From: Prochlorococcus marinus str. MIT 9302
GTDB lineage: Bacteria > Cyanobacteriota > Cyanobacteriia > PCC-6307 > Cyanobiaceae
DNA: 64,000 bases
Direction: 5' to 3'
Assembly: GCF_000759975.1 (NCBI RefSeq)
Contig: NZ_JNAM01000010.1
Location: 248,001 to 312,000 of the forward strand
Position 1 is the stretch's first letter; each line of letters starts with the position of its first letter. The translations under genes were made by a program, and so were the position numbers. Below are positions 6,480-54,400 of this stretch, in pieces. The notes under the pieces were generated by a model. The model saw only the letters and a list, made by a program, of their open reading frames with translations, was not told the origin of the DNA and searched no databases.

Positions 6480-7307
6480 TTGACTGATTTTTTGGTAGCT
6501 GCATTGCAAATTACAAGCACTTCTAATGTTGAAGCAAATTTTGTTCAAGCGGAAGAACAGATTGAACTAGCAGCTCGAAGGGGTGCTGAGTTAATCGGAT
6601 TGCCTGAGAATTTTGCTTTTTTAGGAGAAGATGACGAAAAACTTAGATTGGCTTCTGAATTGTCAACGAAGTGTACAAACTTCCTAAAAACTATGTCACA
6701 GCGATATCAAGTTTTTCTTTTGGGAGGAGGACATCCTGTTCCTGCCGGTGATGATAGACATACTTTAAATAGATCAGCACTTTTTGGAAGAGATGGACAG
6801 GTTTTGGCAAAATATGACAAAATCCATTTGTTTGATGTTGATTTGCCAGACGGAAATTTATATAAGGAATCTTCTACTATTTTGTCTGGAGAGGAATATC
6901 CACCGGTTGTAGATGTTCCAGGTTTATGCAAAGTTGGATTATCGATTTGCTACGATGTTAGATTCCCTGAACTTTATAGATATTTGTCTTCGAATGGTGC
7001 CGAACTAATTATGATTCCCGCAGCTTTTACCGCATTTACTGGGAAAGATCACTGGCAAATTCTATTACAAGCAAGGGCGATTGAGAATACAACATATGTA
7101 GTTGCCCCAGCTCAAACTGGGATTCATTACGGAAGAAGGCAAAGTCATGGCCATGCAATGGTAATTGACCCATGGGGCACTGTCTTATCTGATGCTGGAA
7201 AAACTCAGGGAGCTGCCATAGCTCCGGCTGATAAACAAAGAGTAAAGAAAATTAGGGAGCAGATGCCAAGTCTTAGACATAGAAAAAACAAATTGTTTTC
7301 AAACTAA
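6480..7307 (+). CDS. Carbon-nitrogen hydrolase (nitrilase superfamily, Nit-like)
   Basis: Cytoplasmic C-N hydrolase of 275 aa with the complete nitrilase triad: Glu43 in LPENFAF, Lys114 in KYDKIHLFD and Cys157 in SICYDVRFPELYR. The overall pattern resembles the Nit1/Nit2 omega-amidase or deaminated-glutathione amidase branch rather than a true nitrilase, but the substrate cannot be fixed from sequence. It starts at TTG (6480) and its stop codon shares one base with the ATG of the following amidase, so the two are probably cotranscribed. Confidence 0.85.
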   Translation: MTDFLVAALQITSTSNVEANFVQAEEQIELAARRGAELIGLPENFAFLGEDDEKLRLASELSTKCTNFLKTMSQRYQVFLLGGGHPVPAGDDRHTLNRSALFGRDGQVLAKYDKIHLFDVDLPDGNLYKESSTILSGEEYPPVVDVPGLCKVGLSICYDVRFPELYRYLSSNGAELIMIPAAFTAFTGKDHWQILLQARAIENTTYVVAPAQTGIHYGRRQSHGHAMVIDPWGTVLSDAGKTQGAAIAPADKQRVKKIREQMPSLRHRKNKLFSN

Positions 7308-41762: not shown

Positions 41763-41827
41763 TTAATCTCTTTCTATAAGTTCAATTTTATATCCATCAG
41801 GATCCTCAACAAAAGCAAAGACAGTCT
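41763..41827 (-). pseudogene. gloA: 3' fragment of the chromosomal glyoxalase I gene
   Basis: Read on the minus strand this gives [20 protein letters not shown] and a stop, the last 20 residues of GloA, including the final metal ligand Glu. It is interrupted at ACAGTCT (41821-41827). The missing front part lies 8.4 kb away at 50162-50518 and joins it in frame as KTVFAF when the element between them is removed. Confidence 0.93.
41821..41827. repeat. Left core repeat of the integrated element (att)
   Basis: ACAGTCT occurs here and at 50187-50193, exactly where the two gloA pieces end. A short identical core is expected for serine-recombinase integration. The DNA just inside (CCGATCTGACACCGC) differs from gloA, marking the element edge. 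Confidence 0.85.
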
Positions 41828-41837
41828 CCGATCTGAC

Positions 41838-41858
41838 ACCGCTTTACATAAAGGGAGC
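41838..41858. other. Short hairpin near the left end of the element
   Basis: AAGGGA and TCCCTT (within about 41840-41856) form a 6-bp stem just inside the left end, in the leader of the RHH gene. It could end transcription entering from gloA sequence on the plus strand or be part of the recombination site. Purpose unknown. Confidence 0.35.
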
Positions 41859-41875
41859 TATTCCCTTAAACTGTA

Positions 41876-41888
41876 GTATTTGCAATAC
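41876..41888. promoter_or_regulatory. Candidate operator for the RHH protein
   Basis: GTATT-TGC-AATAC is a perfect 5-bp inverted repeat with a 3-bp spacer, 48 bp before the RHH gene start. RHH repressors commonly bind such short palindromes in their own promoter. The assignment is by position only. Confidence 0.35.
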
Positions 41889-41936
41889 ATTTCAAGCAAG
41901 TAAAAATATAAAAGTAGTTTATTTAAATCTTATTTT

Positions 41937-42119
41937 ATGTTGCTTGATGTTAAGGAAAGAACACGCAAAGTGGATGCTACTCCCACTATTCAATGTCGTG
42001 TAACTGAAGAAATTTTTAAACAATTTAGTAAGTTAGCTGAACATTACAACTGTTCTAATGCTGAATTACTAAGAGCATTAATTGATGACGGCCTTAAAAG
42101 ACATAAGGAGGTTATCTAA
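41937..42119 (+). CDS. Ribbon-helix-helix (CopG/Arc-like) DNA-binding protein
   Basis: 60 aa. PTIQCRVTEEIFKQFSKLAEHYNCSNAELLRALIDDGLKRH gives the N-terminal beta strand and two helices of the RHH fold with the usual SNAELLRALI second helix. It is the first gene of the element's rightward operon and probably represses it or sets copy number. Its stop codon shares one base with the next ATG, and an AAGGAGG site (42105-42111) for that gene lies within its end. Confidence 0.8.
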   Translation: MLLDVKERTRKVDATPTIQCRVTEEIFKQFSKLAEHYNCSNAELLRALIDDGLKRHKEVI

Positions 42120-42466
42120 TGCCAAAAGAAAAAAGCCCTGACTTTCATCAAGACTTTTCCGCTATACCAATTATAACTTCGGATGCAATCAGATCAGATT
42201 CTAAAAAGCTAGTTGATGACTATTGTAATTTGTTTGAAAAAGAGCCAGATAAGGCAATGGCCTCCTTAGTTGAAGATGTTTGTGTTCACACTACGATTCT
42301 GGCTCAACTACAACAAGCCATTTTTGTAAGGCAAGATCAATTAAAGAAAATAATTGCCGAAAAAGAGAAGTTAGAACAAGAAAAAGAGTCTGCCGAAAAG
42401 GTTAGAACTGCACAAATAAGTAAACGGCTTGAGAAGTTAGAGGCTTATTTCCATAAAGGTATGTGA
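42119..42466 (+). CDS. Coiled-coil protein of the element (115 aa)
   Basis: Starts with an excellent Shine-Dalgarno (AAGGAGG, 7 bp before ATG). The middle is helical and the C-terminal 50 residues, rich in Lys and Glu, form a strong coiled coil. No family recognised. Its place between the RHH protein and the primase-like protein suggests a replication accessory role, by context only. Confidence 0.65.
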   Translation: MPKEKSPDFHQDFSAIPIITSDAIRSDSKKLVDDYCNLFEKEPDKAMASLVEDVCVHTTILAQLQQAIFVRQDQLKKIIAEKEKLEQEKESAEKVRTAQISKRLEKLEAYFHKGM

Positions 42467-42470
42467 GGTT

Positions 42471-43055
42471 ATGCAATATTCATCCAAAAGGAATCCTTGC
42501 CCAGTATGCGGAAGAAACAAGGACAGCGATTGCCGTTGGAATGATGAGGTCATGTTTTGCCATTGCGGAAGTAGTTTTGCACCTCCTCAACATTTAAAAG
42601 TTGGAGAAACTTTAATTGTTAATGGTATGGAGTGGGCTTTAGTAAAAACTGATGCTGGTCACTCTGGAAGGGCTTTTGTATTTAAACCTCACAGGCAATT
42701 AGAAAATACTTTTAATTATTCTCCTCATATATATAAGGAGCAAAAAACTAAAAAAGACGAACTTTTTAGAATTGCCATACAAGCCTTTGAAGATTTTTTA
42801 AAGGTAAGTAAAGCAGCTTTAGATGCTGGTAACTTTCAAGAATGTACTCTTGAAGAACTACGAAAAGCTAAAAAGTTAATTGAACGTGCAGTTGAAGAAG
42901 GTAAAGAGCTTAAAACAGTAATGCTCCAGATGCAGCGAAATGATAGAAGATACTCAGACTATTTAGAGCTAATAGATCAACGCAATAAAGAAATTAACTA
43001 TTTAAAGAAAAATGCTGACAGCTTTTGCTGGGAACACTTAGGAGAAATCGAATGA
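42471..43055 (+). CDS. Zinc-finger protein, primase-like N-terminus
   Basis: 194 aa. The start has NPCPVCGRNKDSDCRW and MFCHCG (Cys10, Cys13, Cys21, Cys30, Cys32), close to the zinc ribbon found at the front of many phage and plasmid primases. No TOPRIM or AEP catalytic domain follows; the rest is helical and charged. It overlaps the helicase gene by ATGA, indicating translational coupling. It may be the DNA-loading half of a primase-helicase pair. Confidence 0.68.
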   Translation: MQYSSKRNPCPVCGRNKDSDCRWNDEVMFCHCGSSFAPPQHLKVGETLIVNGMEWALVKTDAGHSGRAFVFKPHRQLENTFNYSPHIYKEQKTKKDELFRIAIQAFEDFLKVSKAALDAGNFQECTLEELRKAKKLIERAVEEGKELKTVMLQMQRNDRRYSDYLELIDQRNKEINYLKKNADSFCWEHLGEIE

Positions 43056-44344
43056 CAATGAAGCACCTAGATTATGACTTGCCTCCAGAAGGACAAGCAA
43101 AAGTTTTAAGGGTATTAAACAAGGAAGTTTTGCAGCCTGTAACTATGGAGCAAAAATTAGATAAATTAGAAATTGAAATTTTTAAGCTATTTCAACCAGA
43201 GTGCAAGATAAAACCTTTAGACAGAATCTTAGTTATGAGAGATTTTTGTTTAAAAGAAGGCTTAAAACTAACTGATACTGAGATAAGACAAAAGATTTGG
43301 CAGGGTAGGCGGTTAATGGAAGGAGCTGTAGAAAGTTATAAACCTAACCAACTACTAGATGTTCCAGAAGAAACTTGGGCTTGGGAAGGAGTAATAATGA
43401 GTGCTGATGCAAACTTGCTCATAAGTCTTCCAAAATGCGGAAAAACTACATTAATTGTTGATCTGATCGCTACTTGGTCTAGAGGTAATGACGAATATTT
43501 AGGACACAAACTAATTGGCAAATGCCCTCCTGTCGTAATAGTCGGAACAGATATGACGTTAAGCCGTTGGCTTCCACTATTACAGCGTTTTGGATTAGCT
43601 GAAAAAGTAGGAGACAAGATGCAGTTTTTCGAGCCGATCGTACAATTATTTGCAGCAAATAATCCTCTACACCTTACGCAAGAAGGATTAGAAAGAATTG
43701 CTGAAATAGCTAGAAACAATAAAGGAGCTTTATTTTTATTTGATAGTTTTGCCAAGTTAGTTGCTCCTCTAGGTTTAAAAGAATCTTCTGAGGATATAGC
43801 TCATCCTTTGGCAGATTTACAGGAAGTCTTAGCACCTTATAAATGTACTTCTATAATTATTCATCACTCAGGAAAAACTAAAGAAGACAGTCCAGTATTA
43901 GCTAGTCGAGGAAGTACAGCACTAACCGCAGCAGTATCACAAATAATTAGCTTGAGCTGGTTTAAAAGGGAGGAGGATAGACAAGACAAAAGAATATTAA
44001 TGAGGACACAAGGTAGGGCAGAAGATGTACAGCTTTTAATTAGTCAAGATAACTCTGGATGGATGTTGGAAGGAAATGTAGCTGACGAACTAAAAAAAGA
44101 CGAATTTAATAAAAAATTAGAAAAATTAACTGATTCACAGGCTGATGTATTTGAAGTTGTACAAGCAGCTAATGGTATGGAGGTTACTGCTTCTGATATA
44201 CAAAACCAGTTAAACATTGCCTCAAAATCTGGCATAAGAATTTTACAGGCATTAACTAAAAAGGGATTTTTAATACAAAACAAATCCACTACTCCAGAAT
44301 CTAGAGGCTCAGTTTTAACTTTTAAAATCAAACCACTTCTTTGA
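43052..44344 (+). CDS. RepA-like replicative helicase (AAA_25 type)
   Basis: 430 aa from the ATG at 43052, chosen because it makes the 4-bp ATGA overlap and has AGGAGA just upstream. The Walker A is LISLPKCGKTTL (Lys131) and the Walker B-like strand is ALFLFDSFAKL. IIIHHSGKTKEDSPVLASRGSTAL is the RepA/RecA-type motif III to IV region. Hexameric helicases of this kind start replication of plasmids and satellites. A C-terminal winged-helix-like segment (VTASDIQNQLNIASKSGIRILQAL) could bind DNA. An iteron-like array follows directly. Confidence 0.82.
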   Translation: MTMKHLDYDLPPEGQAKVLRVLNKEVLQPVTMEQKLDKLEIEIFKLFQPECKIKPLDRILVMRDFCLKEGLKLTDTEIRQKIWQGRRLMEGAVESYKPNQLLDVPEETWAWEGVIMSADANLLISLPKCGKTTLIVDLIATWSRGNDEYLGHKLIGKCPPVVIVGTDMTLSRWLPLLQRFGLAEKVGDKMQFFEPIVQLFAANNPLHLTQEGLERIAEIARNNKGALFLFDSFAKLVAPLGLKESSEDIAHPLADLQEVLAPYKCTSIIIHHSGKTKEDSPVLASRGSTALTAAVSQIISLSWFKREEDRQDKRILMRTQGRAEDVQLLISQDNSGWMLEGNVADELKKDEFNKKLEKLTDSQADVFEVVQAANGMEVTASDIQNQLNIASKSGIRILQALTKKGFLIQNKSTTPESRGSVLTFKIKPLL

Positions 44345-44480
44345 GGTCTGTGAGGTCATGCGTTTTGTGTGTTTAGTGAGGGCAGTTATATATCTAACCT
44401 CACAAACCTCACAAACTACATGGGTACACTAACCTCATTTAATCTAACTAAACTCACAAACCTCACAAACCTCATTAATT
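44344..44480. repeat. Iteron-like array, candidate replication origin
   Basis: The 9-mer CCTCACAAA or close variants occurs repeatedly: a pair near 44398-44415, CCTCATTT near 44432, and a set of three at about 44452-44474. The complementary form (GTCTGTGAGGTCATG) lies at 44347-44360 and TGTTTAGTGAGG near 44369. Directly repeated short sites beside a helicase/initiator gene are typical of iteron origins. The following 44480-44690 is very AT-rich, with three AAATAGAC-like repeats, which would suit a melting region. Confidence 0.65.
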
Positions 44481-44692
44481 AATAATTAGTAAATAAGATT
44501 ATGTTACGAAATTGTAATATTTAATTAGAGGCAAATAGACTGTAATTAGTGCAATTTAGAGCTTTTTAGAGGACATTTAATGTTATTAGAAACTAATTAA
44601 AAACAAATATAGACAAGACGCTAATTACACCAACTAAATATAAACAAATAGACAGTTTTTTAGCTCAGAATTGTATAAGTTACATAAACATT
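44481..44692. other. AT-rich non-coding stretch after the iterons
   Basis: No ORF of note. Contains CAAATAGACTGTAATTAG (about 44550), CAAATATAGACAAGACG (about 44605) and CAAATAGACAGTTTTTTAG (about 44644), three related direct repeats. It may belong to the origin or to the promoter of the capsid genes. Confidence 0.4.
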
Positions 44693-44827
44693 ATGCGTAG
44701 ACCGCATAAGACAGGTAACAAAGCTCCAGATGCACCTATTAGGTCAGAAGATGCTTTGCAATCTGCACAATATAGACGCTATTTGCGTGAGCAATTAGAA
44801 GTCGAACTCGGACATTATCGAGACTAA
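44693..44827 (+). CDS. Small basic protein before the capsid gene (44 aa)
   Basis: ORF beginning MRRPHKTGNKAPDAPIRSED and ending 2 bp before the capsid-fusion ATG, so it is probably translated with it. It is hydrophilic, with a helical Arg-rich second half. In tailed phages a portal gene normally precedes the prohead protease, and this peptide is far too short for that. Possible roles are scaffold-like or leader peptide; none is proved. Confidence 0.5.
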   Translation: MRRPHKTGNKAPDAPIRSEDALQSAQYRRYLREQLEVELGHYRD

Positions 44828-44829
44828 CT

Positions 44830-46452
44830 ATGGAAACAGTAGAAGAAATAACGCTGCAAAGACGTTATTTGTCTCTAGTTGATGAGACAGAGGAAGATCA
44901 GGCAGACACTTTAAAATTTTCTTTTTCTAGTGAAAAGCCTGTAAGTCGTTATGCCTTTGATGAAGTCTTAGACCATAGCGAAGACAGCGTAGACATGACC
45001 CGACTTAATGCGGGTGCGCCTTTACTTTTTAACCACAATCCAGACAAACCTATTGGTGTTGTACAAAGAGCTTGGTTAGATAATCGCAAAGGTTATGCAC
45101 GAATTAAGTGGGGAACTTCCCAACTAGCGGAGGAAATTCGCAGGGATGTCGAGAACGGAATCCTTAAATCAATTTCGGTCGGTTATCGAATAGAAGAAGC
45201 TGACACCGAAGAAAAGTATGGAGTTGTTAGGGCTACAAGTTGGACACCCTATGAACTAAGCGTTGTGACTATTCCAGCCGATCACTCGATTGGTATTGGT
45301 CGGTCGATCGTTCAACAAGAAACTAAAAAAACACCAAAAAAGGAGGTTAAAAAAATGACTCAAGCAATTTCAACTATTAATGATGGTTGGTCTGAGTACG
45401 AAAGAGAATCTAGGAATTTTTCTATCGTTCGTGCTTTACAGGCAAGTGTTAGCGGTAACTGGTCTAACGCTGGATTAGAAAGAGAAGTACAGCAAGAATT
45501 ATCTCGTGCAAATGGTAGAGAATCACAAGGAATCTTTGTACCAGATAATGGTTGGGCAACTAGAGACTATACAAAAGGGTCATCTACACAAGGACAAAAA
45601 TTAGTAGGTGTTGACCATCTTGCCGACAGATTTATAGATGTTTTAAGAGCAAGATTAGTAACTGCCGAAATGGGTGCAACATTTTTGCCTGGACTTGTTT
45701 CTGACGTTTCAATTCCTAGAAGAACGGCTGGAGGAACAGCTTATTTTGTAGCTGAAGGGAGCAATGTTACTGAATCGACAGGCACGTTCGATAGCATTTC
45801 AATGAGTCCAAAAGTTATGGGTGCATTTAGTCAGTTTTCTTATTTAATGCAGCTTCAAGCGACTCCAGAAATTGAAGAATTAATTAGACAAGATTTTGTT
45901 GCTTTATTAGCTCAAAAATTAGATCAAGTTGCAATCAATGGCGGAGGCAGTAACGAGCCAAGTGGCATCCTTCAAACTTCTGGAATTGGCAGCGTGGTTA
46001 TCGGGTCAAATGGCGGTGCGATCACTTTAGACAAAATGCTCGATCTTAAGCAAACAGTTGCAGTAGATAATGCAGACATTCCAACTGCTGGCTTTCTAAC
46101 TAATACAAAAGTTGAGAACGCTTTAAGCAAATTAAAAGATGGAAATTCCGCATATTTATTAAACCCATACGGAACAGAAATTGGACAACAACAATTTGCT
46201 GGAAGAAGTTTGATGATCTCAAACAACGTGCCTTCCAACCTTACAAAAGGTAGTTCAAGCGGTGTATGTTCAGCAGCCATTTATGGTAACTTCTCAGACT
46301 TGCTTATAGGTCTTTTCGGAACTTTGGAACTCTTAGTAGACCCCTACACTCAATTCCAATCTGGAGGTGTTGGCATAAGAGCTTTACAAGGTGTTGATGT
46401 TAAAGTTCGTCACCCAGAATCCTTCGGTGCAATCTTAGACATTACAACATAA
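44830..46452 (+). CDS. Prohead protease fused to HK97-type major capsid protein
   Basis: 540 aa. Residues 1-160 are a prohead serine protease: NHNPDKPIG carries His69 and ISVGYR carries Ser116, as in HK97 gp4. From Met176 the protein is an HK97-fold capsid subunit, with a helical delta-like region, then VDHLADRFIDVLRARLVTAEMGATFLPGLVSDVSIPR, and FVAEGSNVTESTGTFDSISMSPKVMGAFSQFS in the middle. Codon 176 is an ATG with AAGGAGG about 8 bp upstream, so capsid alone (365 aa) can be made too. Confidence 0.9.
   Translation: METVEEITLQRRYLSLVDETEEDQADTLKFSFSSEKPVSRYAFDEVLDHSEDSVDMTRLNAGAPLLFNHNPDKPIGVVQRAWLDNRKGYARIKWGTSQLAEEIRRDVENGILKSISVGYRIEEADTEEKYGVVRATSWTPYELSVVTIPADHSIGIGRSIVQQETKKTPKKEVKKMTQAISTINDGWSEYERESRNFSIVRALQASVSGNWSNAGLEREVQQELSRANGRESQGIFVPDNGWATRDYTKGSSTQGQKLVGVDHLADRFIDVLRARLVTAEMGATFLPGLVSDVSIPRRTAGGTAYFVAEGSNVTESTGTFDSISMSPKVMGAFSQFSYLMQLQATPEIEELIRQDFVALLAQKLDQVAINGGGSNEPSGILQTSGIGSVVIGSNGGAITLDKMLDLKQTVAVDNADIPTAGFLTNTKVENALSKLKDGNSAYLLNPYGTEIGQQQFAGRSLMISNNVPSNLTKGSSSGVCSAAIYGNFSDLLIGLFGTLELLVDPYTQFQSGGVGIRALQGVDVKVRHPESFGAILDITT
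45340..45357 (+). promoter_or_regulatory. Internal ribosome binding site and ATG within the capsid fusion gene
   Basis: AAGGAGGTT (45340-45348) is followed by the in-frame ATG at 45355-45357, codon 176 of the fusion. The site falls exactly in the Lys-rich linker between protease and capsid domains. It would give a high level of free capsid subunit against a lower level of protease-capsid fusion. Confidence 0.75.
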
Positions 46453-46785
46453 TTTTTTAGAGGCAGTTAAGTTTTGGGTGTTTTGTTTCTTCGCACCTTC
46501 TTCCATAGTTCGGGCATAGTAGAACGAGCTTTTCTGCCTCTAATAACCCATTCTCAATAAGGATTTATCTGCCATATTTTGACACCCTATATATGGCAAA
46601 TAGGTTCTTTTTCTCTGTGTGTTCGTGGGTAATTTCGCACCCCAAATTTTTTCTAGGCAGAGCCTCCATATATAGTGGACACTTACAATTCTCAATAAGG
46701 CAAAATAAGCAAAAATAAGGGCATATTATACCGCATAAATCCAGTTAGCAACTACTTTCTCATTTATCTCTAAATCGGTGTAAAA
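46453..46785. other. Structured non-coding region after the capsid gene
   Basis: No gene, but several inverted repeats: TTAGAGGCAG (from 46457) pairs perfectly with CTGCCTCTAA (from 46534), enclosing smaller GGTG/CACC and GTTC/GAAC stems. TGCCATAT (46570) pairs with ATATGGCA (46591), and AGGC-AGA-GCCT lies near 46654. The 13-mer ATTCTCAATAAGG is directly repeated at 46550-46562 and 46688-46700. It could be a structured RNA, a packaging or recombination site, or a terminator set. Confidence 0.6.
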
Positions 46786-47019
46786 ATGAAACCAGTTAAT
46801 GTAAAACTTACAATTTCTGAGGCTGCTAGGGAGCTTGGTTACAGCTCCAGATCACAGCTTTATAACCTGATAAAAAAAGGGTATTTAAATAACTATCTTT
46901 GGGTAGATGAAAAGGGCAGAAAGTTCTTAGAAATGCACCCTGTCGGTCGTAGAAAATTAAAAGATTATTTACCAGCAATAATTAAATGGAGATCAGATTG
47001 CGTACACCTAAAAAGTTAA
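46786..47019 (+). CDS. Excisionase-like helix-turn-helix protein
   Basis: 77 aa. TISEAARELGYSSRSQLYNLIKKGYLNNY is an HTH_17/excisionase-type segment, and the rest is basic. In this element it is the best candidate for a recombination directionality factor that would turn the serine recombinase towards excision, or for a regulator of the leftward operon. It is convergent with the replacement gloA, 78 bp apart. Confidence 0.65.
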   Translation: MKPVNVKLTISEAARELGYSSRSQLYNLIKKGYLNNYLWVDEKGRKFLEMHPVGRRKLKDYLPAIIKWRSDCVHLKS

Positions 47020-47097
47020 CTGTCTACTATATGCGAAGTTGACGCTAAACAACTTTCCAGCCTTTGGATGACCCACAAATATAAGTAAAAAAAGAAC

Positions 47098-47487
47098 CTA
47101 GTCTCTTTCTATTAGCTCAATTTTATAGCCGTCAGGATCTTCAACAAACGCTAAAACTGTCGTACTGTTCTTCATAGTTTTTGGCTTTGTTGTAACTTTA
47201 CAGCCGTTATCTTCTAGCCCCTGACAAATGCCATGAATATCTTTTACACCTATAGCAATATGTCCGTACTTATCTCCAAGCTCATAATCTTCTGATTTTT
47301 TGCCCCAATTATGAGTTAGCTCAATTACTGCATTTTCTTTCTCAGAACCATAACCAACAAAAGCTAAAGTAAATTCTCCATGCGGATAATCTTTTTTTCT
47401 AATTAAATTCATTCCTAATCTATTTACATAAAAATCTATTGATTTATCTAAATCTCCTACCCTCAACATTGTGTGAAGAATCCGCAT
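47098..47487 (-). CDS. gloA: Glyoxalase I, complete element-borne copy
   Basis: Lactoylglutathione lyase, 129 aa, removing methylglyoxal. All metal ligands are present: His5, Glu56, His76 and Glu124. It differs from the split chromosomal copy at roughly 8 of the first 110 residues and at many silent sites. At the place where the chromosomal gene is cut, this copy reads SerThrThrValLeu rather than SerLysThrValPhe, so the ACAGTCT core is ACTGTCG. It is third in the recombinase-ligase-gloA operon, 27 bp after the ligase. Confidence 0.93.
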
Positions 47488-47514
47488 TTTAAATTATGAA
47501 CCTAAATTAATTAT

Positions 47515-48270
47515 CTAAAATTTTATGGCTGTCTGCCAAAAGGGATATGTTCCGTAAGATTTTTCTCTAATTAACTGTAATTTTCTAGAATTTATTTTTA
47601 CCACTATTCCGTCTGTTGGATAGTTATTAAATAGTTTTTTATTAGCCCATTGTTGCCTGTAAATTTGCACCTGACTCGTAAAATTGCAGCTCTTATATTC
47701 TGGAATCGTAAAGCCTAATTTTTTTAAATATTTAAGCGAATCGTGTTGATTTAACTTGCCATTAATTATCTGGAAAGAACAAAAGCTAAGATGATCGCTT
47801 TTACTATCACGACTCCGCAAATAACCGCCAGCCTGTCGTTGCGAATAAGTTGGTCGTTCATATTCTGATGGGTTAAAGAGTTCTCCTCTAACTTGAAATA
47901 AACCTTGAACTTTTACTGTAGATGGTACATCTGGAATAGCTTTAATTTTTGAAGTTACATCTAAACCTTTTCGAGTTATACATTTTTCTAAGTTGCCATT
48001 TTGATATTGCAAAGCGATTGCACAGCCGTCAATTTTAGGCTCAATAATTAACCTTGTATCAGGCAATAAACCTTCTAAAAATTCTTCAATATTGTCCTTC
48101 GGCAAACTTGGCAAAGGCAATGCTTTTTTGTTTGCAAAGTAATCGCAATTAGGGTCTATTCGTAATAAGTTCCGTTCTAACTGGTCGAATTGTTTATCAG
48201 TAATCAGGGCATTGCCTGACCGATAATTTTCGTCATACCATTTAACTCTTTCTTCTAAATAACTGCTCAT
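47515..48270 (-). CDS. NAD-dependent DNA ligase, adenylation domains only
   Basis: 251 aa against about 670 for full LigA. The N-terminal part resembles domain Ia, which binds the NMN half of NAD+ (WYDENYRSGNALITDKQFDQL). The nucleotidyl-transfer motif is EPKIDGCAIAL with Lys79, then IQVRGE-like FQVRGELF, and YPTDGIVVKIN. It stops after FWQTAIKF, so OB-fold, zinc finger, HhH and BRCT domains are absent. It overlaps the recombinase gene by 4 bp (ATGA). Self-adenylation looks possible; nick sealing would be weak or need a partner. Confidence 0.85.
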   Translation of the reverse strand: MSSYLEERVKWYDENYRSGNALITDKQFDQLERNLLRIDPNCDYFANKKALPLPSLPKDNIEEFLEGLLPDTRLIIEPKIDGCAIALQYQNGNLEKCITRKGLDVTSKIKAIPDVPSTVKVQGLFQVRGELFNPSEYERPTYSQRQAGGYLRSRDSKSDHLSFCSFQIINGKLNQHDSLKYLKKLGFTIPEYKSCNFTSQVQIYRQQWANKKLFNNYPTDGIVVKINSRKLQLIREKSYGTYPFWQTAIKF

Positions 48271-50123
48271 TTTTTACCTCTGGGAAATCTAACGTCATAT
48301 CCTTCTTCTAGGCTCATTTTTTTATAATCTTCTAAACGCTTTTCCTCTGATTCAAGTACTTGTTTTTTATCAACACCAAGAGCAACTAAATCTTCAATAC
48401 TTTGATCTAATCCTCTATATTTGCCAGTTATAAAATCAAACATTCCAATTCCAACATGAAACGCATAATTTTTATGAGGTGTTTTTCTAGTTTGTTTTTG
48501 CTTATAAATATCTACTTGTATTGCCATTCCCATTTCTTTAAGCCAAGAATTAAATTTAAATCTTTCTTGAACATCAAACCTACCTTTATTAATAAAGTTT
48601 TTAACTCTTTTTTTAATATCATCTTCTAAACTTTTACCAGTTTTTTTTCTTTTTAAATTTTGTATATCTAAGTTAGCTCTATTATATTTTTCAGTTAATT
48701 CATCATATTTTTCTATAGCCTGATTTTTCTTTTCTCTAAGATTTTGAGGTAATATTTCTCCTTGTTCAAAATATTGTTCTTCGGCTGTTTTATATTTTTC
48801 AATCTGATTAGATACTTTATTTCTTTCGTTTAAATATCTTGTTCTTTTATCTTTTTCAACTTGTATGTCATTTTCATGCTTTTCATCTGTAAAAAACTCA
48901 GCCCATCTAAAATTCTGGATTTTTTCAAGAATAGCTAGTTCATTATCTATGCCATTGTGTAATTGTTTATAAGTAGCAGCATTAGTAACTGAACAAATAT
49001 TAGAAGTTTGATTTCTTCCGACAGAACAATGCAAACTAAAATATTCAACTTCTATTTTTGGGCTATTTTTAACATTAAATTCTTTGCAGACTAATCTTTT
49101 AACACCAACAACTTCTATACGACCTCCGCAATGTCCGCAAAAAATAGAGCCTTGAAATAAATTAACTACTTTATGATGAGCAGATTGAGGAACAGTATTA
49201 GTAACCCTAGCTTGCTTGGCTTTTTGAACTAAATTAAATTGCTCTGGAGTAATAATTGCTGGATAAATACCAAAATAAGTTTTACCTCTAAATACTTTTT
49301 CTCCTAAAACAACTCTATTTTCTAAAATGCAATGTCTAATAACATTTCTAGTAAACCATTCAGTTTTAAATCCAATCGGATTCTTAATGCCTTGATCTTT
49401 TAAAGTTCGTTCAATCTTTTTTACTCCCATAGTTTCAGCCATAGTAAATATTTTTCTCACTATTTCTGCTTCTTCTTCTAAGACAATAAATTGTTTTCTT
49501 TTCTCATCAAAATTAAGCCAAAAAGGGTAAAGACCATGTTTTGTCCCTTTTTCTCTACCTTTAAAATGATCTAGTTTGCCATTTTCTAGATTTTCTTGAA
49601 CAGCATCAAAAGAACCTACTATTCTTTCTTGTTTTGTTTGCCATTCGATAGAGGCTTGCATCATTCCTCCTAAAAGTTGAAACCATGCAGGGTCATTTCC
49701 TTTACCATCAAATACTTTTCCTCCGTATTCAGTAAAAGCAATAGTTAAACCAGAATTAAAAATTCTAAGTAGTAGTTCTAAAGAATTTTTAGGAATTTCT
49801 CTTGATAGCCTCGACATGGATTCAACAACTAAACAAGTTCCAAACGGAATTTCTCCTTTTTCTGCTTTTTCAATAATTTTGTTTAATGCCCCTGCTTTAC
49901 TGTTTTTGCCTCTACCAGATAGTCCTAAATCTTTAAATTCATCTAAATTCTCATAATCGTTATTTTTTTTCAGCCAATCTTGATATGCTTTTTCTTGTCT
50001 TTTTATGCCAGAACCATCTAACTGATCTTTAGTACTTACACGAACATAAGACAGGGAATATTTAACAGCAACTTTTATCGCTTTACTCTTTGAAACAGAA
50101 GGTTTTACAAGGCTTTGAGCCAT
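48267..50123 (-). CDS. Large serine recombinase (integrase)
   Basis: 618 aa. The catalytic domain has YVRVSTKDQ with nucleophile Ser30, GLSGRGKNS and ESMSRLSRE with active-site Arg residues. The recombinase domain follows (about 200-310), then a zinc ribbon (CGHCGG with later Cys pairs, about 345-395). A long coiled coil (about 430-510) comes next, and the C-terminal extension is helical. This architecture is that of phiC31-type integrases. It starts 64 bp inside the right core repeat, as expected for an integrase next to attP. Confidence 0.93.
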   Translation of the reverse strand: MAQSLVKPSVSKSKAIKVAVKYSLSYVRVSTKDQLDGSGIKRQEKAYQDWLKKNNDYENLDEFKDLGLSGRGKNSKAGALNKIIEKAEKGEIPFGTCLVVESMSRLSREIPKNSLELLLRIFNSGLTIAFTEYGGKVFDGKGNDPAWFQLLGGMMQASIEWQTKQERIVGSFDAVQENLENGKLDHFKGREKGTKHGLYPFWLNFDEKRKQFIVLEEEAEIVRKIFTMAETMGVKKIERTLKDQGIKNPIGFKTEWFTRNVIRHCILENRVVLGEKVFRGKTYFGIYPAIITPEQFNLVQKAKQARVTNTVPQSAHHKVVNLFQGSIFCGHCGGRIEVVGVKRLVCKEFNVKNSPKIEVEYFSLHCSVGRNQTSNICSVTNAATYKQLHNGIDNELAILEKIQNFRWAEFFTDEKHENDIQVEKDKRTRYLNERNKVSNQIEKYKTAEEQYFEQGEILPQNLREKKNQAIEKYDELTEKYNRANLDIQNLKRKKTGKSLEDDIKKRVKNFINKGRFDVQERFKFNSWLKEMGMAIQVDIYKQKQTRKTPHKNYAFHVGIGMFDFITGKYRGLDQSIEDLVALGVDKKQVLESEEKRLEDYKKMSLEEGYDVRFPRGKK

Positions 50124-50161
50124 TACTAGATTTCAACTTAAAGCTAGTATGGCACAGGTTT

Positions 50162-50518
50162 TTACTTATGACAAAAGGGGTGTATTACAGTCTTACTGTT
50201 TTTCATTGTTTTAGGTTTGGTTGTTAATTTACAGCCATTATTTTCTAATCCTTGGCAAATAAGATGAATATCTTTTACTCCAATTGCTATATGACCATAT
50301 TTATCTCCAAGCTCATATTCTTCCGACTTTTTCCCCCAGTTATAAGTTAATTCAATTACGGCGTTTTCTTTTTCTGAGCCATAGCCAACAAATGCCAAAG
50401 TGAATTTCCCATGAGGGTAATCCTTTTTTCTTAACAAATTCATTCCTAATCTATTGACGTAGAAATCAATGGATTTATCTAAATCTCCTACTCTTAACAT
50501 TGTATGTAGAATACGCAT
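50162..50518 (-). pseudogene. gloA: 5' part of the chromosomal glyoxalase I gene, truncated by insertion
   Basis: Encodes the first ~111 residues of GloA up to MKNSKTV, then seven foreign residues and a stop. His5, Glu56 and His76 remain, but the last metal ligand (Glu in GYKIELIE) is lost to the 3' fragment at 41763, so the product should be inactive. Its promoter would read straight into the recombinase gene 38 bp further on. Confidence 0.92.
50187..50193. repeat. Right core repeat of the integrated element (att)
   Basis: ACAGTCT, identical to 41821-41827. To its right the sequence is gloA (TACTGTTTTTCATTG) and to its left element DNA (GGGGTGTATT). Rejoining at this core gives the in-frame native gene. 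Confidence 0.85.
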
Positions 50519-50545
50519 TTTGAATTATGAAGCTTAATCAATTAT

Positions 50546-50587
50546 CTAATATTTAATATCCATCTGCCAAAGTTGATATTTGCGAGG
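50546..50587 (-). pseudogene. Remnant of a ligase gene end upstream of the split gloA
   Basis: Minus-strand codons read PRKYQLWQMDIKY and a stop, aligning with the ligase end GTYPFWQTAIKF at 47515. The gap from this stop to the gloA ATG is 27 bp, the same as between the element ligase and the element gloA, and the gap sequences are similar. So the chromosome, or an earlier element, once carried the same ligase-gloA pair. Confidence 0.65.
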
Positions 50588-50651
50588 CTAAGTCATCAAT
50601 TACATTCTGAAAAATTAGGTTAAGATATTAGTACTGAATTTCAGCAATATA

Positions 50652-54065: not shown

Positions 54066-54167
54066 TTTTTGTTAAAAGCTCAGGGAATATTCGTCAAATT
54101 TGAATTGATTCATAAATTATGAATAGTTCTTAAATTCGATTTAAGATTTTAGAAATTAATCAAAAGA

Positions 54168-54254
54168 CGGAGGGGGTGGGATTCGAACCCACGGTGCCCT
54201 TGCAGACACGCTAGTTTTCAAGACTAGAGCCTTAAACCACTCGACCACCCCTCC
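54168..54254 (-). tRNA. tRNA-Ser (anticodon TGA)
   Basis: 87 nt. Acceptor stem GGAGGGG/CCCCTCC with discriminator G, anticodon loop CTTGAAA (anticodon TGA), a long class II variable arm, and T loop TTCGAAT. CCA is not encoded. tRNA-Ser genes are common attachment sites, and a tyrosine recombinase gene starts 210 bp from its 5' end. No second copy of its 3' end is seen in the window. Confidence 0.93.
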
Positions 54255-54400
54255 AACGGGTTATTCAGTTGTATCCGAACCATTAATATATATCATAAGA
54301 AGTCAGTCATAGTCAAGTAATTTACCTTATTGCATGGGTTCTCAGGAGTTATAAAATGAAAACATTTTTTGGTTGACAGAATATAGGTGTACTTGCACGG

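Follow-up and report, generated by a model that had tools for sequence, protein, structure and literature searches.

A serine-recombinase element that splits gloA in Prochlorococcus carries capsid and replication genes and a complete second gloA

The gene gloA of Prochlorococcus marinus str. MIT 9302 lies in two pieces, which raises the question of what has come between them and how the broken gene might be made good. The stretch analysed here, 64,000 nucleotides of contig NZ_JNAM01000010.1 (positions 248,001 to 312,000; hereafter the window), holds on its minus strand a native gloA that is split at 41821/50187 by an insert of 8.37 kb. An earlier reading of the DNA letters alone (the sequence-only reading) had proposed that two gloA fragments, both cut at the motif ACAGTCT, would restore an in-frame gene if the DNA between them were removed, and this was borne out: the joined flanks form an intact reading frame of 129 aa. 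The 7-mer by itself says little, with 5 matches in the 64-kb window against 4.75 expected, so the case for a split gene is built on the in-frame join and on synteny rather than on a motif that is common by chance. Fifteen other genomes of the genus were examined first, and in 14 of them gloA is whole, with the same genes on either side. We then read 118 other gloA loci in the genus, mostly the highest-ranking matches to the element gloA and not a random sample. All 118 hold a full gloA open reading frame and 117 are uninterrupted, so that the empty site called for by the sequence-only reading is present in other strains; the sole exception, G220, has an extra gloA fragment together with a recombinase fragment. 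Both native neighbours are visible in the stretch taken at 108 of the loci, and three of the other ten were read more widely: in G304 both neighbours are present, 2.7 kb apart with other genes between them, in G398 one side of the locus is replaced by other genes, and the third, G272, is taken up below. Searching with the element gloA gave a match in 200 of the 266 genus genomes and in 79 of the 87 near-complete ones. About 25 genomes gave only weak or partial matches, for which contig ends, other glyoxalases or further insertions are possible causes; these genomes lie outside the 118 loci read, save for a gloA tail in G334 and stretches of G339 and G266. gloA is widespread, not near-universal, in the genus.

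What does the insert encode? Its nine open reading frames, all intact, were scanned against protein families at E up to 0.1 (Table 1). The large serine recombinase (LSR), RepA-like helicase and protease-capsid fusion named in the sequence-only reading were recovered as matches to Resolvase and Recombinase, to AAA_25, and to Peptidase_S78 and Phage_capsid, respectively. The zinc-finger primase-like protein of that reading has the expected CPxCG...CHCG motif by eye, but no convincing family match, and the three small proteins belong to no clear family. No terminase, portal, tail or lysis family was matched among the nine proteins, as had been claimed. In the LSR the Resolvase and Recombinase domains score above cut-off and the zinc ribbon PF13408 below it, and residues R28 and S30, which we take to be catalytic, are invariant in 6 sequences. 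The sole tRNA of the window, a tRNA-Ser at 54166, lies outside the element.

A search of Prochlorococcus genomes for the modules, along the lines that the sequence-only reading had proposed, found the LSR in 10 and the capsid in 19 of the 266 genus genomes. Four of the LSRs sit at gloA. Prochlorococcus AG-347-B23 (B23; L101) has an insertion between the same gloA halves, in the same orientation and with the same gene set as the window. N18 (L102/L113/L164) has an element at the same gloA site, reversed and with cargo; no capsid gene was found on the two contigs that hold the ends of this element, the middle of which is not assembled in one piece. In the fourth, G220, a different element restoring the gene end was considered and rejected; what it holds at this site is a reversed insertion that has decayed and keeps a fragment of the recombinase. 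When the window is compared with B23, DNA identity is 97-99% for four element genes and 88-93% for seven flanking host genes; the element therefore appears to have spread after the hosts split, a contrast in identity that points to recent horizontal spread. The ligase gene is the exception among the element genes, at 72% DNA identity (window 47515-48270 vs L101:10514-11263), and seems to have been swapped separately, as a unit. With either type of recombinase, a ligase gene that follows the integrase gene starts at the integrase stop or overlaps it. The same LSR at the same gloA site also carries the cargo island of N18, for which the two end contigs show no capsid gene; the gloA-targeted lineage is defined by its integration module, not by the satellite body. 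Away from gloA, the LSR lies beside a glycosyltransferase-like gene in G278, and G418 holds a fragment only. The small far-end protein of 60 aa has homologues in satellite and cargo bodies alike, being present in the LSR elements of the window, B23, N18, G278 and G349 (five in all). It is a candidate directionality factor; it was not found in the decayed G220 or in three stretches (L122, L126, L132) whose far ends were not identified. The helix-turn-helix (HTH) protein at 46786-47019 is unlikely to be the directionality factor of the LSR, since the same protein (86-90% identity) is found in three satellites with tyrosine-type integrases (L115, L120, L127). As side observations, a ligase with only its adenylation domain is tied to both recombinase types, and the N18 cargo (L113:11679-20000 and L114) comprises a 4,130-aa open frame followed by proteins that look export-like by eye.

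The module of recombinase, ligase and gloA includes a feature that goes beyond the sequence-only reading, namely a full second gloA carried within the insert. The carried and native genes are identical at 120 of 129 aa (93%) and at 320 of 390 nt (82%), and 60 of the 70 nucleotide differences fall at third codon positions; the carried gene also keeps part of the native upstream sequence. A full-length gloA is present in all three undecayed gloA-inserted elements (window, B23 and N18), and the three copies are identical among themselves at 375 to 385 of 390 nt. Five stretches that hold related LSRs away from gloA (L122, L126, L131, L132 and L165) yielded no gloA, although L126 and L132 cover the recombinase end only. 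The element genes form a clade of their own (support 98/95, in a tree whose bootstrap had not fully settled), outside the large clade that holds the native gloA of the window, and on this tree derivation of the carried gene from the present host was rejected. Codon differences among the element genes are overwhelmingly synonymous (synonymous to non-synonymous, 14:1 for window and N18, 5:0 for window and B23); the split native gene differs from the consensus of 13 host genes by 13:6, and four intact host gloAs gave 14:1, 1:3, 19:4 and 11:1. Codon comparison of this kind shows the carried gloA protein to be under constraint.

Where the exchange takes place can be read from the element ends. In the orientation of the window, B23 has an attB of GCTAAGACAGT-AG-AACTGTT and an attP of GGTGTATTACAGT-AG-CCGATCTGACACC. 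The window has the same arms with CT as the centre on both sides, and N18 has an attP of GGTGTATTAGACT-CT-AAGATAAAACACC, its element lying reversed in an AG site. In all three, GGTGT/ACACC flanks the 2-bp centre at a distance of 8 nt on either side. The sequence-only reading had taken the 7-mer as a core. The repeat is indeed present at both cuts, but a fixed 7-bp core had to give way to a 2-bp centre, as two neighbouring bases of it are different in B23 from those in the window, at both sides. Since the attP arms are symmetric about CT and these two bases co-vary in B23, the crossover is most likely the CT at 41826-41827 and 50192-50193, inside the 7-mer. The centres were placed from sequence, by arm symmetry and co-variation, and on such evidence the attP has the symmetric arms and orienting 2-bp centre of serine integrase systems. 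A similar recombinase-end arm occurs in 9 elements, N18 among them, a comparison that covered all the LSR elements but the fragment in G418.

Orientation at gloA is consistent with these centres: an AG attP in an AG site gives a direct insertion (B23), CT in AG an inverted one (N18), and CT in CT a direct one (window); the junction of G220, which reads CC at its centre, is too worn to count. A second LSR target is flanked by a GH57 gene and by crtL (both named by eye), whose 3' ends face it. Its empty form is seen in L309 and L310, with the centre AT, which is the same on both strands, and the recombinase end faces GH57 in G428 and G366 and crtL in G269; the decayed G349 has the centre AA and faces crtL. 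Efficient strand exchange is reported only with parallel alignment of the central dinucleotides in a passage of PMC3783163, citing Ghosh 2003 and Smith 2004. As far as the sequences go, insertion orientation at gloA and at the second locus fits these rules for serine integrases.

Codon 109, at the crossover, reads ACG in the three element gloAs, with CG as the centre, and across the 118 host loci it reads ACT in 84, ACA in 19, ACC in 5, TCA, ACG and AAT in 2 each, and GCT, GCA, GCC and AAG in 1 each. With its CG centre the carried copy should be a poor target for its own recombinase. The single AAG belongs to G344 and equals the codon of the split gene in the window. The gloA of G344 is uninterrupted between normal neighbours and is a mosaic: nt 1-240 are mostly host-like, the sequence is element-like from nt 256 to the crossover, and it is host-like from nt 333 save for one site. 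Over nt 235-324 it matches the N18 element gloA at 86 of 90 positions, switching to the host type at the att centre. An ancestor of G344 may have held an element in gloA, the carried copy having converted the end of the native 5' half before precise excision rejoined the halves; the mosaic is likely the mark of such a past insertion and precise excision. It is possible that a breakpoint fell at the crossover by chance, for which we estimate roughly a few per cent (68 informative sites and two tract ends, with one case from 118).

How far the body of the element is peculiar to gloA was judged from the stretches around all 21 places in the 19 genomes where the capsid was matched. At 16 of these the nearby recombinase is an integrase of 395-462 aa belonging to one sequence cluster, at two it is the LSR (window and B23), and at three no integrase is in view (G446, G366 and G266). 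The cluster is assigned to the tyrosine class by PHROG integrase matches (phrog_1 or phrog_216) in all five genus members scanned (2e-17 to 0.005), with further support from a sub-cut-off Phage_integrase match and motifs by eye. Seven of the places have a tRNA-Pro in their stretch and one a tRNA-Met. The order of genes is held in common, with small proteins, helicase, capsid and HTH, although the helicase varies (AAA_25 or VapE-like). Mean column identity of the capsid is 64% across 18 members, and the capsid of the window shares 97% DNA identity with B23, 90% protein identity with a tyrosine-type element in G281, and 36-38% with the Synechococcus siphophages S-LBS1 and S-CBS3. With controls positive, GpA terminase (PF05876), Phage_portal (PF04860) and TerL_ATPase (PF03354) were matched in none of the 19 capsid genomes, many of them incomplete; these genomes thus gave no sign, by these families, of a complete prophage or a resident helper. 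Among viral contigs, IMG/VR contig L185 (1-8725) has the satellite gene order by eye and a capsid of 53% identity, with a homologue of the 194-aa zinc-motif protein before its helicase (also by eye) and, in the place of the integrase, a 413-aa protein with no family match. Its exact terminal repeat of 99 bp would fit a circle of 8,626 bp. The capsids of IMG/VR phages that possess both terminase and portal (L187, L188) are only about 40% identical, and an alignment search of IMG/VR gave no close RepA (best 23%, L267). The sequence-only reading had proposed a distinct satellite family targeting a protein gene; the serine recombinase and the gloA target stand, but a distinct family is not supported, because the core of capsid, helicase, small proteins and HTH is common to the satellites with tyrosine-type integrases. 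The genus thus has this satellite core elsewhere too; distinctive here are the LSR module, the gene-splitting target and the full replacement gene. As separate observations, G376 has two capsid satellites with tyrosine-type integrases side by side (L174:4688-17965), G339 has two capsid places on one contig, and an 854-aa protein of a related IMG/VR contig, L186 (4609-7170), fuses a zinc-motif part (by eye) to a helicase part, for which the window element has two genes.

Taken together, we consider it probable that the insert is a phage-satellite-like element that enters gloA by LSR insertion, replaces the function of the gene with its carried gloA and uses packaging supplied by a helper. The LSR would insert an 8.37-kb circle into gloA codon 109 by exchange at the 2-bp centre. 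Insertion would break gloA, and the complete carried gene, with its conserved, native-like upstream sequence, would take over. With CG at the crossover, the carried copy would, by serine-integrase rules, undergo no productive recombination with an AG or CT attP. Matching of the 2-bp centres would set the orientation, and excision, with either the 60-aa far-end protein or a helper-phage protein as directionality factor, would restore gloA. The element would replicate by its helicase module and make its own capsid protein; a helper phage would provide the functions that are absent from the insert, namely terminase, portal, tail and lysis. More tentatively, and with rather less confidence than would favour it outright, the element may exemplify a way of life in which a recombinase disrupts a widespread host gene and brings a substitute with a non-matching centre, as a module transferable between satellite and cargo-island bodies. 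Such a module would combine low host cost, insertion in either orientation and precise exit, and would leave pieces of its gene copy in host gloA; besides the G344 mosaic, the gloA of G220 has an element-like 3' half.

Several findings weigh against these proposals. A CT centre is also missing from 33 of the 118 host gloAs, so that drift alone could explain the CG of the carried copy; the CT centre of the window needs the host allele AAG, found at 1 of 118 loci; and the scar in G344 could be plain homologous recombination between gloA types. The gene may be dispensable, as 8 of the 87 near-complete genomes have no gloA match and at least 4 of the 79 matches in the others are weak (G270, G442, G357 and G319). 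There is a decayed 3' gloA remnant near an integrase-ligase pair in G333 (L117:7048-7155), a short gloA tail in G334 (L129:19282-19341) and, in G272 (L388:12345-12734), a full gloA that has none of its native neighbours and lies at 12 kb from such a pair. As to a viral life, the negative for portal and terminase across the genus rests on three families, with PF05136 and PF03237 outside the search; IMG/VR gave no close LSR in single-protein and alignment searches (best 30%, L265) and only capsids of 53% and below (best 80 of 280). The evidence is drawn from assembled sequence.

Could the carried gloA instead be passenger cargo, an extra dose or a useful metabolic gene that does not rescue the broken target? 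The gloA pieces and copies in island-like places just described, the strains that have no strong gloA match and the other cargo that N18 holds beside gloA would all suit such a view. We nevertheless think it unlikely, given that the carried gene is a homologue of the very gene that is split, is complete in every undecayed gloA-inserted element, was not found in the five stretches with related LSRs elsewhere, and has kept its protein sequence under many silent changes. It is a little harder still to credit that the whole is a cargo or genomic island, with a relic or domesticated capsid gene, that moves by its recombinase and other transfer and not in phage particles. The N18 contigs with the same LSR module and no capsid in view point that way, as does the failure to find a packaging gene; the capsid, however, is maintained, as its identity to B23, to G281 and across the 18 members indicates, and a terminally repeated contig with the same core lies among viral contigs (L185). 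Very improbable, finally, is a temperate phage in gloA that has lost terminase, portal, tail and lysis genes and kept its capsid and replication genes: the protease-capsid fusion is of phage type, with its likeness to siphophages, and the IMG/VR contigs with capsids of about 40% are true phages, but no reading frame of the insert is broken, B23 shares its compact gene set at 97-99% save for the ligase, this minimal layout is repeated in L185 and, beside other integrases, at other places, and none of the 19 capsid genomes matches the three terminase and portal families, all of which favours the capsid-bearing satellite proposed in the sequence-only reading.

The element can be set beside several known systems. 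By its nine proteins, and by the three families searched in the 19 capsid genomes, it resembles phage satellites in being without genes for complete particles. The capsid satellites of Prochlorococcus with tyrosine-type integrases have the same order of small proteins, helicase, protease-capsid and HTH, and in part a ligase beside the integrase; they are unlike it in the class of integrase, in the tRNA-Pro at 7 places and in that no gloA or 60-aa end protein is labelled in them. These satellites are presumably among the elements of Hackl et al. 2023. A literature search that did not take in this key Prochlorococcus paper found no report of the element described here. The island e14 in icd restores its split target with a carried gene end. 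Islands at tRNA genes that do likewise are described in part of PMC4383910. Like these, the window element compensates for a broken target; unlike them, it has a complete, diverged gene copy inside and not a replacement end fused at the junction. Capsid-forming PICI (cfPICI) carry their own packaging genes. Named in a passage of PMC11389934, they are satellites making their own capsid; the window element has capsid-protease only, with no packaging gene found. PLE of Vibrio cholerae, according to a section of PMC6002521, is a satellite that relies on a large serine recombinase to integrate and to excise, and the helper phage can supply the directionality factor; the window element likewise has an LSR, and differs in host and integration site. 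VEIME, marine integrative elements in virus particles, are named in a portion of PMC10803314, and associated integrases are called tyrosine recombinases in a passage of PMC10187409. VEIME are characterised by DNA found inside virions; the window element is known here from its genes. Identity of the LSR with the picocyanobacterial integrase described in PMC10187409 was considered and rejected, as the latter is given as a tyrosine recombinase at tRNA genes. Tycheposons are characterised in part of PMC10872708 by a tRNA at the border and a tyrosine recombinase; the target here is gloA and the recombinase is of the serine type.

If these readings are right, a satellite can settle in a single-copy protein gene and do without the customary tRNA trick, and the gloA insertions show in natural populations how the central dinucleotide governs serine-integrase orientation, a rule known at the bench from Bxb1 and other integrases. 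Genetic tools are scarce for Prochlorococcus. The element provides defined att sites and a candidate LSR for this host, and is a concrete satellite whose helper can be sought. The mosaics suggest, if truly of this origin, a host gene being rewritten by its own parasite across populations.

Table 1. Features of the element and of the native gloA fragments that flank it, in window coordinates.
Feature	Position	Strand	Remarks
Native gloA 3' fragment	41763..41820	-	Stop 41763-41765; joins in frame to 5' fragment
Attachment junction, ACAGTCT	41821..41827	.	Likely crossover dinucleotide CT 41826-41827; attP arms symmetric about CT
Element end away from recombinase, attP arm	41828..41860	.	ACACC 8 nt from crossover; homologous end in N18
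60-aa small protein, ribbon-helix-helix-like by eye	41937..42119	+	Weak repressor matches only
115-aa small protein, common to other capsid satellites	42119..42466	+	
194-aa protein, CPxCG...CHCG zinc motif, primase-type by eye	42471..43055	+	No convincing family match
RepA-like helicase, AAA_25 and winged helix	43025..44344	+	PF13481 4.5e-15; phrog_30286 1.8e-82
Prohead protease-major capsid fusion	44830..46452	+	PF04586 (Peptidase_S78), PF05065 (Phage_capsid); phrog_617 3.8e-119
HTH/excisionase-like protein	46786..47019	+	HTH_17 2.3e-4, below cut-off
Complete second gloA, proposed rescue copy	47098..47487	-	PF00903 3.7e-25
NAD-dependent DNA ligase, adenylation domain only	47515..48270	-	PF01653 8.3e-24; PDB LigA matches; start overlaps recombinase stop
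Large serine recombinase (LSR), 618 aa	48267..50123	-	PF00239, PF07508; phrog_95 2.1e-54
Recombinase-side element end, attP arm GGCACAGGTTTTTACTTATGACAAAAGGGGTGTATT	50134..50186	.	
Second attachment junction	50187..50193	.	Likely crossover dinucleotide CT 50192-50193
Native gloA 5' fragment	50187..50518	-	

Three further observations concern the surroundings of gloA and traces of lost elements. Just upstream of gloA, a stretch resembling the C-terminus of the ligase (QLWQMVIKY*) is present at 41 of 58 host loci, a count made with no chance control, and lies at 50519-50600 in the window; the gloA of N18 is flanked by two ligase tails (L113:6161-6250 and 6683-6769). Such stretches are possibly the fossil of an earlier ligase-gloA element. 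A worn recombinase-end attP arm lies in G258 (L326:1480-1580), a genome with no LSR match, and is probably the trace of another lost element. The tRNA-Ser of the window (54166-54255) is 4 kb from gloA, and in G340 (L124) an integrase-ligase pair adjoins a tRNA-Ser; the region of gloA and tRNA-Ser may be a wider hot spot.

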